Source: Burkholderia ubonensis subsp. mesacidophila
Lineage (GTDB): Bacteria; Pseudomonadota; Gammaproteobacteria; Burkholderiales; Burkholderiaceae
Length of the DNA stretch: 64,000 nt
Assembly (NCBI RefSeq): GCF_002097715.1
Contig: NZ_CP020737.1
Coordinates: 496,001-560,000 of the forward strand
Direction: 5' to 3'
The position numbers and the translations under genes are program-made. The first letter of the stretch is position 1. Each line of letters starts with the position of its first letter. The notes beneath the pieces are model-generated. The model had not been told where the DNA came from. It did no database searches and saw only the letters and a program-made list of their open reading frames with translations. This document shows, in pieces, positions 61,468 through 64,000 of the stretch.

Positions 61468-62961
61468 TCAGAAGTCGCTGTCGAGGCCGTCTTGGACCTG
61501 TTCGGCCGCACGCAGCACCGCGCGCGCCTTGTTCTCGGTCTCTTGCCATTCGGATTCGGGCACCGAATCCGCGACGACGCCGGCCGCCGCTTGCACATAC
61601 AGGTTGCCGTTGTGGATCAGGCCGGTGCGGATCGCGATCGCGAGGTCCATCTCGCCCGAGAACGACAGGTAGCCGACGGCGCCGCCGTACAGCCCGCGCT
61701 TGACCGGCTCGAGCTCGTCGATCAGCTCCATCGCGCGCACCTTCGGCGCGCCCGACAGCGTGCCGGCCGGGAACGTCGCGCGCAGCACGTCGTAGTTCGT
61801 CATGCCGGGCTTCAGCTTGCCTTCGACCGAGCTGACGATGTGCTGCACGTGCGAGTACTTCTCGATCACCATCTTGTCGGTCACCTGGACCGAGCCGATT
61901 TCCGCGATGCGGCCCACGTCGTTGCGCGCGAGGTCGATCAGCATCACATGCTCGGCAATCTCCTTCGGATCGTTGAGCAGTTCGGTCGCGAGCTCCGCGT
62001 CGCGTTCCGGCGTGTTGCCGCGCGGGCGCGTGCCGGCGAGCGGGCGGATCGTGACGATCTGGTCGTCGCCGCGCTTCTCCTGGCGCACGAGGATTTCCGG
62101 CGACGCGCCGACCACGTGGAAATCGCCGAAGTTGTAGTAATACATGTACGGCGACGGATTCAACGAGCGCAGCGCGCGGTACAGCGACAGCGGGTTGTCG
62201 CGATACGGCTTCGTCAGGCGCTGGCCGACCTGGATCTGCATCAGCTCGCCGGCCGCGATGTATTCCTTCGCCTGGCGCACGGCGGCCAGATAGTCTTCCT
62301 TCTTGAACTCGCGGAACGTTTCGGTGCGCACGCTCGCCGACGTGACGGGCGGCTGCACGGTCGCGCGCAGCCGTTGCTTCAGCTCGCGCAGGCGCTGCTT
62401 CGCCTTCGTGTACGCCTCCGGCTGGCCCGGATCGGCGTAGATGATCAGGTACAGCTTGCCGGCCAGGTTGTCGATGACGGCGACTTCCTCCGTCAGCAAC
62501 AGCTGGATGTCGGGCAGGCCGAGATCGTCGCGCGGCGCGGTGTGCGCGAGCTTCTTCTCGATGTAGCGCACCGCGTCGTAGCCGAAGTAGCCGGCGAGAC
62601 CGCCGCAGAAGCGCGGCAGGCCAGGACGCTGCGCGACCTTGAAGCGCGCCTGGAACGCGGCGATGAACTCGAACGGATCGCCGTCGTGCGTCTCGACGAC
62701 CTGGCCGTCGCGCACCACCTCGGACACGCCGTTGCGGGTACGCACGAGGGTGCGCGCCGGCAGGCCGATGAACGAGTAGCGGCCGAAGCGTTCGCCGCCG
62801 ACCACCGATTCGAGCAGGAACGAGTTGGCGCCGGTGCGTTCGGGCTGCGCCAGCTTCAGGTAGAGGGACAGCGGCGTTTCGAGATCGGCCAGGGCCTCCG
62901 CGATCAGCGGAATGCGGTTGTAGCCTTCGTTCGCGAGCGATTGGAATTCGAGTTCGGTCAT
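61468..62961 (-). CDS. trpE: Anthranilate synthase component I
   Basis: A 497-aa chorismate-utilising enzyme, the committed step of tryptophan synthesis. The N-terminal Trp feedback pocket includes LLES at about 48-51 (FLLESVVGG). The catalytic barrel has [61 protein letters not shown] and [20 protein letters not shown]. First structural gene of the trp operon, preceded by a 343-nt leader with a Trp attenuator. Confidence 0.97.
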
Positions 62962-63183
62962 GTTCCGGTCCTGTTCTGGACGAGCGGCGGGATGCGCCGG
63001 GGATCACGTGATGCTGCGCGGCTGCTGTCGGCGGAACGGCGGTCGATCGTGGTGTGCCTGGTGCCGGCGGGCGGATTCCGGAGCGCGAACGTCGCGAGCC
63101 TGCGACCGTCCCTGAACGCAAGCGTTCGGGTGCGGTAGGACTCGAGGTGGTGCGGCGATCGGCGTGCGGATGCGCAGCGAGAC

Positions 63184-63215
63184 AAAAAAACGGCGCTGAA
63201 GACGTGCTTCAGCGC
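63184..63215 (-). terminator. trp attenuator terminator
   Basis: On the - strand GCGCTGAAG (63215-63207), loop CACGT, and CTTCAGCGC (63201-63193) form a perfect 9-bp stem followed by CG and seven T (63190-63184). It lies 16 nt beyond the leader-peptide stop codon. Confidence 0.92.
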
Positions 63216-63237
63216 ACCTCATCGAAGAGGTTAGCGC
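63212..63237 (-). promoter_or_regulatory. trp antiterminator hairpin
   Basis: On the - strand GCGC (63237-63234), bulged TA, ACCTC (63231-63227), loop TTCGAT, GAGGT (63220-63216) and GCGC (63215-63212) pair. The last GCGC is also the first part of the terminator 5' arm, so the two hairpins exclude each other. The 5' arm contains the leader-peptide stop codon, so a ribosome at that stop would block it. Confidence 0.75.
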
Positions 63238-63305
63238 GACCAGCGACGCCAGGGCCAGGCTCCCCGGTCGATGCTGCTCAGACTCCGTTTTTTGTTCAGA
63301 AACAT
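63231..63305 (-). CDS. trpL: trp operon leader peptide
   Basis: A 24-aa peptide starting MFLNKKRSL and ending AWPWRRWSR, with Trp at positions 17, 19 and 22 (codons at 63257-63255, 63251-63249, 63242-63240) just before a TAA. Three Trp in 24 residues, right before a mutually exclusive antiterminator and terminator, is the classical attenuator layout. The ATG lies 18 bp after the gph stop. The ribosome site is weak. Ribosome stalling at these codons in Trp shortage would let the trp operon be transcribed (established mechanism; function here inferred). Confidence 0.85.
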   Translation of the reverse strand: MFLNKKRSLSSIDRGAWPWRRWSR

Positions 63306-63323
63306 GCGGATGGAAGAATTAGA

Positions 63324-64000
63324 TCAGACGGTTGGCCGGCCGGCGTTGTGCGCGGCGATCGCGCGAGCTGCGACCAGCAACGAGCCGACTATACCATCCG
63401 AATTTATCGTTTGTATAGCCTTGCCATGGTTGTAGCCGTACGGCACCGTCAGCGTCGCCATGCCCGCCGCGCGGCCCGCGAGCGCGTCGTTTTCCGAGTC
63501 GCCGATCGCCACCGCGACACCCGGCGCGACGCCGAGCGCATCGCACGCGGTCAGCATCGGCAGCGGGTCGGGTTTCTTGCGTGGCACGCTGTCGCCGCCG
63601 AGTACGATGTCGAAGCGGTCGATCAGCCCGTATTGCTCGAGCAGTTCGATCGCGAAGCGGTGCGGCTTGTTGGTCACGCACGCGAGCTTGATGCCGTCGG
63701 CGCGCAGCGCGTCGAGACCGGCCGCGACGTCCGGGTAGAGGCACGTGTGGCGGCCGTTGATCTTTGCGTATTCGGCCTGGTAGATCGCGAGCGCGTCGTT
63801 AAAGCGCGCGTGCGCTTCGTCCGCGGAAAAGCGCGGCTTCAGCACGCTCTGGATCAGATGCTCGGAGCCCTTGCCGACGTAGCCGATCACCTCGTCGCGC
63901 GACGTCGCCGGCGCATCGAGCTTCGCCAGCATGTGGTTCAGGCCGACGGTGAAATCGTCGGCGGTATCGACCATCGTGCCGTCGAGGTCGATCAGCGCCG
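63324..64000 (-). CDS. gph: Phosphoglycolate phosphatase Gph (N-terminus beyond window)
   Basis: A HAD-superfamily phosphatase cut by the right window edge; 225 residues are visible. The frame is open to position 64000 and reads ALIDLDGTMVDTADDF, containing HAD motif I (DLDGT), so the ATG at 63974 is internal. Motif II is ACVTNKPH, motif III RKKPDPLP and motif IV AIGDSENDALAGRAAGM. It removes phosphate from 2-phosphoglycolate. It directly precedes the trp leader, as in other Burkholderia and Pseudomonas genomes. Confidence 0.92.
   Translation of the reverse strand, partial: ALIDLDGTMVDTADDFTVGLNHMLAKLDAPATSRDEVIGYVGKGSEHLIQSVLKPRFSADEAHARFNDALAIYQAEYAKINGRHTCLYPDVAAGLDALRADGIKLACVTNKPHRFAIELLEQYGLIDRFDIVLGGDSVPRKKPDPLPMLTACDALGVAPGVAVAIGDSENDALAGRAAGMATLTVPYGYNHGKAIQTINSDGIVGSLLVAARAIAAHNAGRPTV
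63388..63393 (-). promoter_or_regulatory. Possible trp promoter -10 inside the 3' end of gph
   Basis: TATAGT on the - strand in an AT-rich stretch of gph (about 63385-63430). A start near 63381 would give a 76-nt leader to the trpL ATG. The -35 (ATACAA at 17 bp) is poor. Confidence 0.35.

Follow-up and report, generated by a model that had tools for sequence, protein, structure and literature searches.

In Escherichia coli, the trp leader trpL is a ribosome-mediated attenuator, and Rfam collects such elements in its Trp_leader family; as a kind, the Trp-codon leader attenuator is textbook material. The locus described here, from a window of 64,000 nt (the whole stretch of DNA that was analyzed), resembles E. 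coli trpL in that a short open reading frame (ORF) with Trp codons near its end, hairpins, and an intrinsic terminator stand before trpE. It departs from E. coli trpL in that positions 62000 to 64000 gave no Rfam 15 family match at E ≤ 1, a stable antiterminator is not supported in the window, a long-range helix, here called P0, joins the beginning of the leader to the terminator tail, and the genome gave no match to TrpR (PF01371), with a profile that in the control matched 2 of 14 known genomes, E. coli included. Antibiotics induce the erm-type translational attenuators, in which a Shine-Dalgarno site is kept sequestered until a ribosome waits on the leader ORF. The model below shares with them the waiting ribosome and the freed site, whereas here the signal would be Trp-tRNA shortage and the sequestering strand is formed by the leader's own first codons.

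Among the literature passages compared, the nearest published relative of P0 is the LEU element of Actinobacteria, in which Leu codons pair with the Shine-Dalgarno box of leuA (PMC1262725). As those passages describe it, the run of Leu codons itself pairs in the LEU element, whereas here pairing is by the first codons and encloses the Trp codons in a loop; phylum and amino acid are also different, and a form with a terminator tail exists here. The rnTrpL/peTrpL system of Sinorhizobium meliloti likewise has a Trp leader and a terminator before trpE(G) (PMC7298713), but this organism is an alphaproteobacterium, the paper deals with roles in trans, and a helix of the leader start is absent from its passages compared. 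No trp leader of Burkholderia and no such helix was found among the literature matches listed, and the main text of a start-site study of Burkholderia cenocepacia (PMC4603805) contains none of the strings "trp," "tryptophan," and "attenuat." Because a web list of predicted bacterial attenuators (cited in PMC1173090) and older surveys exist, the trpL leader may already have been predicted in print. Trp attenuation is the textbook example of gene expression being decided by a ribosome, yet the best-supported helix at this locus lies outside that scheme.

The host genome has 7.84 Mb in four contigs, and its nearest relatives by TrpE are named Burkholderia. The features of the region are collected in Table 1; the gene names gph, trpE, trpG, and trpD are those that we take to apply from sequence and gene order.

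Table 1. Features of the trp leader region, in positions of the window
Feature	Position	Strand	Description and basis
Promoter candidate	63388..63417	-	TATACA, 18 nt, TATAGT, with TG before the -10 element; inside the 3' end of gph
trpL	63231..63305	-	24-codon leader ORF, MFLNKKRSLSSIDRGAWPWRRWSR
P0, 5' strand	63285..63296	-	Codons 4 to 7, AAC AAA AAA CGG; covaries with the tail
Hairpin I, Trp-codon region	63249..63267	-	CCGGGG-AGCCTGG-CCCTGG; predicted by folding
Trp codon 17 (TGG)	63255..63257	-	First Trp is codon 17 in 143/146 and codon 18 in 3/146 distinct leaders
Trp codon 19 (TGG)	63249..63251	-	Trp two codons past the first Trp in 146/146
Trp codon 22 (TGG)	63240..63242	-	Trp in 133/146; Ser in 10, Leu in 2, missing in 1
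Hairpin II, ACCTC/GAGGT	63216..63231	-	Its 5' end is the final stop-codon base
Hairpin III, 9-bp terminator stem	63193..63215	-	Terminator scan, folding, consensus
U run, seven T	63184..63190	-	Sequence, terminator scan
P0, 3' strand	63182..63193	-	CCG, U run, and next base (terminator tail); consensus fold, pair counts
trpE	61468..62961	-	ORF, 497 aa; ATG at 62961; trpG and trpD ORFs follow

The original prediction had placed here a complete attenuator made up of a Trp-codon leader, an antiterminator, and a terminator. Its leader was borne out in every detail: an ORF of 24 codons with Trp at codons 17, 19, and 22 lies between gph and trpE, starts 18 nt after gph (whose stop codon ends at 63324), and ends in a TAA at 63233 to 63231, within the 5' arm of a hairpin spanning 63237 to 63212. 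By eye, a purine-rich Shine-Dalgarno sequence is absent upstream of the trpL ATG. The conservation of the Trp codons expected among relatives was also seen, the first two being present in all 146 distinct leaders and the third in 133. These leaders come from trpE upstream regions gathered from relatives (among genome contigs, the best 80 of 582), the family, the order, and the class, by a search for ORFs that start with MF and hold at least two Trp codons anywhere, with Trp positions not imposed. Altogether, 161 of 257 family and order loci carried a leader, in counts that include repeats, as some loci are one contig present in two collections. All 105 loci of the Burkholderia group (L001 to L025 and L031 to L110) have trpL in the same position, as do 52 of the 65 additional family loci (the other 13 are without a leader); a leader was also found in 4 of 5 loci from a second family of the order (f8). 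At the level of the order, some ORF with a Trp cluster precedes trpE in 63 of 90 loci, some of them by chance, and many of these ORFs are shorter and near trpE. An ORF with Trp codons before trpE, the mark of attenuators of this class, is therefore in place, and because trpL stands in 105/105 and 52/65 loci, a Trp-responsive leader before trpE is well supported by sequence comparison. Little changed, the stretch DRGAWPWR (codons 13 to 20, 63269 to 63246) is found again in several families. P0 does not account for this, and possible causes are hairpin I or some action of the nascent peptide.

The hairpins of the original prediction are likewise present in the window. The stop-codon hairpin reads GCGC-TA-ACCTC/TTCGAT/GAGGT-GCGC, that is, hairpin II extended by GCGC (63237 to 63234 with 63215 to 63212), and its 3' arm has this GCGC in common with the 5' arm of the 9-bp terminator stem GCGCTGAAG/CTTCAGCGC, which is followed by CG and seven T. 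A terminator scan of 63100 to 63500 gave a single site, but shuffled sequences averaged 0.4, so that the scan taken alone is weak evidence; the predicted fold of the 151-nt leader had a z score of -2.41, equaled by 4 of 200 shuffles. A terminator between leader and trpE is conserved in the 88 distinct sequences used for the consensus, which were chosen for having such a tail. The consensus stem ends 4 to 5 nt ahead of the U run in 82 of these 88 rows, while the stem of the window ends 2 nt ahead of it. The pairs of hairpin I are almost invariant, so covariation is uninformative there. Straight after the U run, a UUCGCUGCGC-like motif (63172 to 63181, minus strand) recurs in many Burkholderia and Paraburkholderia rows.

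The GCGC overlap as the switch was not supported in the form predicted. Exact copies of the pairing common to both hairpins, which had been expected to be kept by compensatory changes, occur in just 2 of the 88 distinct relatives; a three-pair GCG/CGC form is present in 58 more, while 8 peptides end in His, which breaks the overlap; the shared GCGC was hence rejected as a conserved switch. We then have to ask how far a classical E. coli-type attenuation remains tenable, in which a stalled ribosome would let hairpin II form first, by speed and not by stability, and so weaken hairpin III, while a ribosome at the stop codon would block hairpin II and leave hairpin III to terminate, P0 merely silencing trpL later. 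In 83 of 88 rows (counted without a shuffle control), a stem lies no more than 12 nt from the stop codon, at the place of hairpin II and starting on the stop codon; 70 of these stems are of the CCTC/GAGG type, and 13 differ in sequence. The stem can be extended into the terminator stem by at least three pairs in 60 of 88 (2 exact, 58 shorter), and both the terminator and the U run are conserved, all of which is in keeping with the classical scheme. Folding with masked ribosomes bears on it in both directions. With a ribosome at W17, W19, W22, or the stop codon, the terminator stem of the window kept a probability of 0.93 to 1.00, so that the folding model gives no support to a stable antiterminator in the window. 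Eight relatives were folded in this way (eleven names were tried in all; L037 and L079 were not representatives and gave no result). With the whole tail free, two of them lost the stem, L170 at W19 and W22 and L052 at these two positions as well as at the stop codon; when the U run was hidden, L052 at W22 was the sole case of loss. Such losses are what the scheme calls for, but the loss in L052 at the stop codon (tail free) goes in the wrong direction for it. Kinetic competition by hairpin II is possible; taken as a whole, we regard the classical reading as unlikely, given the rarity of the exact overlap, the His-ending peptides, and the persistence of hairpin III.

The helix that stands out in sequence comparison is P0, the best-covarying and best-conserved helix of the leader, which had no part in the original prediction. 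Leader codons 4 to 7, AAC AAA AAA CGG, are the reverse complement of the typical terminator tail CCG UUUUUU G, and in general the strands read AAY AAA AAA CGG and CCG UUUUUU R. In 88 distinct sequences, 844 of 880 P0 pairs were Watson-Crick, compared to 792 ± 5 when tails were exchanged between species, the observed count not being reached once in 10,000 exchanges; for the 21 distinct strand combinations, the figures were 181 of 210 and 168 ± 3 (again 0 of 10,000). Here and above, counts on 88 rows refer to distinct rows whose tail was found by pattern, the rows of L114, L115, L117, g20, and g128 lying outside this set, and P0 pairs were counted by script because the alignment put the tail one column out of register between rows. 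The RNAalifold consensus of the 88 distinct sequences also includes P0. Mismatches occur in rows L157, L158, L163, L167, L168, L169, and L176. In the window itself, each of nt 11 to 20 of trpL pairs with the tail at a probability of 0.75 to 0.99 over all registers, while the mean probability of P0 in its fixed register is 0.39, which is due to the seventh T disturbing the register. An extension of P0 by codons 9 and 10 (CUGAG) into the 3' arm of the terminator appeared by eye to be kept in many rows; it was dropped on being found lost without compensation in L095, L154, L158, L168, L176, and L178.

P0 also covaries at a synonymous position, in codon 4. The third base of this codon (AAT, or AAC/AGC) fits the A or G that follows the U run, AAT going with A and AAC with G, and forms a Watson-Crick pair in 126 of 127 rows and a U-G wobble in the remaining one. 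For this analysis, 3 of 161 loci were skipped (less than 520 nt before trpL), repeats were merged to give 143 rows, and 16 rows with another codon 4 or no U run were left out. On a quick gph tree, the two positions changed 9 and 8 times; restricted to well-supported branches, there are no more than 5 independent codon 4 pairs, of which 4 go the same way, none the opposite way, and 1 shows no difference (p = 0.125). Matched double changes were also found elsewhere in the helix, namely, AAG with CCGUUUCUUG (L171 and L172) and AGA with CCGUUUUCUG (L160), and in f8 the U run is broken in step with the leader codons, ACAACAAACG with CGUUUGUUGU (L117) and CAAUAAA with UUUAUUG (L115). Lys codons 5 and 6 are AAA 259 times and AAG 5 times in 144 leaders, compared to AAA 2 and AAG 46 in trpE, trpG, trpD, and part of gph of the window. 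These data weigh on the idea that the leader peptide itself is the conserved product, acting in trans or in the ribosome tunnel: the recurrence of DRGAWPWR in several families, left unexplained by P0, would suit it, but the conserved NKKR start is explained by RNA pairing in which a synonymous position covaries, and we consider this idea very improbable. By eye, in a locus of yet another family (L215, G059), leader TGGAAAAA matches terminator tail TTTTTCCA. The tail form may have arisen more than once.

The pairing of a leader start with an output element, backed by covariation, was thus found with the terminator tail, and in other genomes it was found with the trpE ribosome-binding site (RBS). 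The trpE of the window lies 220 nt further on; where leaders adjoin trpE, in the order and in other orders of the class, their first codons match the trpE ribosome-binding region, as in CCGAATCCTG with CAGGATTCGG (L204), CCCGGATCCTG with CAGGATCCGGG (L135), and GCATTTACCT with AGGTAAATGC (L222). Shuffled 5' strands in RNAduplex proved a poor control because long gapped pairings dominate, and swapped partners were used instead, in tests in which loci within one family are not independent. In 40 order-level loci, the leaders scored 1064.5 with their own partners, and swapping gave 740 ± 26 (0 of 20,000); the true partner came first in 11 of 40 cases and had a median rank of 3. Sliding windows over 37 of the loci (L200, L028, and L136 left out; L026, L114, and L115 kept) located the signal between leader nt 1 to 30 and the region 36 to 7 nt upstream of trpE, with z of 9.5 to 11. 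The signal had dropped to nearly 0 at 48 nt upstream and at 36 nt downstream of the trpE ATG, with the caveat that the trpE starts of relatives come from alignment and could be wrong by a few codons. In the same 37 loci, the z of the leader's final 30 nt against the trpE RBS was only 1.7, so the hallmark of the LEU element, pairing of the control-codon end with the Shine-Dalgarno box, was not seen in them. The class, which in the GTDB scheme holds both beta- and gammaproteobacteria, yielded 23 leaders from 68 loci of its other orders, with z of 8.9 (0 of 5,000); two of these leaders, L272 and L318, probably lie inside gph. If the ribosome is taken to extend 18 nt upstream of its A-site codon, one that waits at the first Trp would overlap the helix strand by at least 4 nt in 42 of 51 trpE-near loci, a count made without a control and with L200, L028, L136, L026, L114, and L115 all left out.

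A third site is matched in genera g20 and g128 of the family, which we would guess to be Ralstonia- or Cupriavidus-like. Here codons CGC AAA CGC match GCGUUUGC or GCGUUCGCG (the latter with one mismatch) just after the stop codon, and there is no U run; the rows with this site are L177, L182, and L185 to L188, as well as L113, L179, L180, L184, and L189 (codons 5 to 7). In L179, CGC is changed to CGU together with G to A on the opposite strand. This pairing at the stop codon without a U run stays unexplained by the model set out below and counts against it. In L217, the leader and the trpE upstream region contain complementary copies of a CACAGAGGCACAGAG-like repeat with a perfect match of 27 nt, and a repeat element may have supplied both strands.

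We think it probable that P0 is an OFF state that ribosomes open while they wait for Trp, and that it acts on the terminator tail in Burkholderia and on the trpE start signal in many lineages. According to this model, transcription would begin at a promoter within the end of gph, and trpL would be translated. Codons 4 to 7 would serve both as code and as the RNA strand that pairs with the tail (CCG and the U run), and closure of P0 would enclose the Trp codons together with the stop-codon hairpin and the terminator stem in one compact fold. With ample Trp-tRNA, the ribosome would be gone, codons 4 to 7 would be free, and P0 would shut, with termination completed or locked in. With scarce Trp, a ribosome would stall at codon 17 or 19 and a second one would queue about ten codons behind, on codons 4 to 7; P0 would be open, and read-through into trpE would follow. 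In the trpE-near leaders, the same strand would hide the trpE ribosome-binding site, and a waiting ribosome on this strand would free translation directly. Genome comparison demonstrates the leader, the terminator, the helix, and the trpE counterpart of the helix in two other genome sets; we infer the OFF sign in Burkholderia, the queueing, and the timing relative to RNA polymerase. The missing TrpR match in the genome also speaks for the model.

The geometry of the leader is the reason for invoking a queue. Apart from its downstream edge, the ribosome footprint is a general background value. A published passage gives 12 nt for the downstream side (PMC4833913). In Burkholderia, the first Trp sits 10 to 13 codons past the helix strand, and a ribosome at codon 17 reaches back to about nt 31, with codons 4 to 7 at nt 10 to 21; the waiting ribosome therefore misses the strand, and a queued second one would cover it. 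Several further points count against the model, namely, the small number of independent codon 4 pairs, the P0 mismatches in several rows, the register disturbed by the seventh T in the window, and the 13 family loci that have no leader. In addition, P0 and the terminator stem are compatible and not exclusive, as seen by RNAalifold and masked folding. The 3' strand of P0 emerges from the polymerase later than the position at which intrinsic termination usually occurs, so that P0 may act too late to decide it. Its role could then lie after the decision, in hiding the trpL start and the U tail of the released RNA to give a stable untranslated small RNA, perhaps with targets in trans. P0 does join the expected 3' tail of the terminated RNA to the start of the ORF, and trans roles have been reported for the Sinorhizobium trp leader in the passages compared (PMC7298713), but this proposal leaves unexplained why, in leaders near trpE, that strand is paired to the ribosome-binding site of trpE, and we judge it improbable.

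Taking P0 as the OFF state, a wider proposal is a class-wide trp switch in which the first leader codons are antisense to the output signal, either the trpE RBS, where the leader is near trpE, or a composite terminator, as in Burkholderia, its relatives, and a further family of the order, and in which occupancy of these codons by the ribosome decides termination; for this we see the arguments as evenly balanced. The last helix of the composite terminator would come from the start of the trpL coding sequence 100 nt upstream. If true, one rule, a leader start antisense to the output, would link transcriptional and translational control across the class, would explain why a short leader peptide keeps its N terminus, and would provide a sequence test for such switches before other amino acid operons.

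Upstream of the leader, a promoter scan of 63100 to 63500 gave only one promoter-like site, scoring 9/12, where shuffled sequences gave a mean of 0.1. GATGGTATAGT occurs within 160 nt upstream of trpL in 148 of 161 leaders. This site in gph being conserved, trp transcripts may start near 63381, about 75 nt upstream of trpL, as judged from the promoter-like sequence. All 3 ATA codons among the 72 Ile codons of trpE, trpG, trpD, and part of gph fall at the promoter candidate, and the GC content at third codon positions is 0.38 over the 13 codons of the promoter stretch, compared to 0.86 for gph. At 63388 to 63420 (minus strand), an AT-rich stretch in the end of gph thus has an extended -10 promoter candidate written into the coding sequence.
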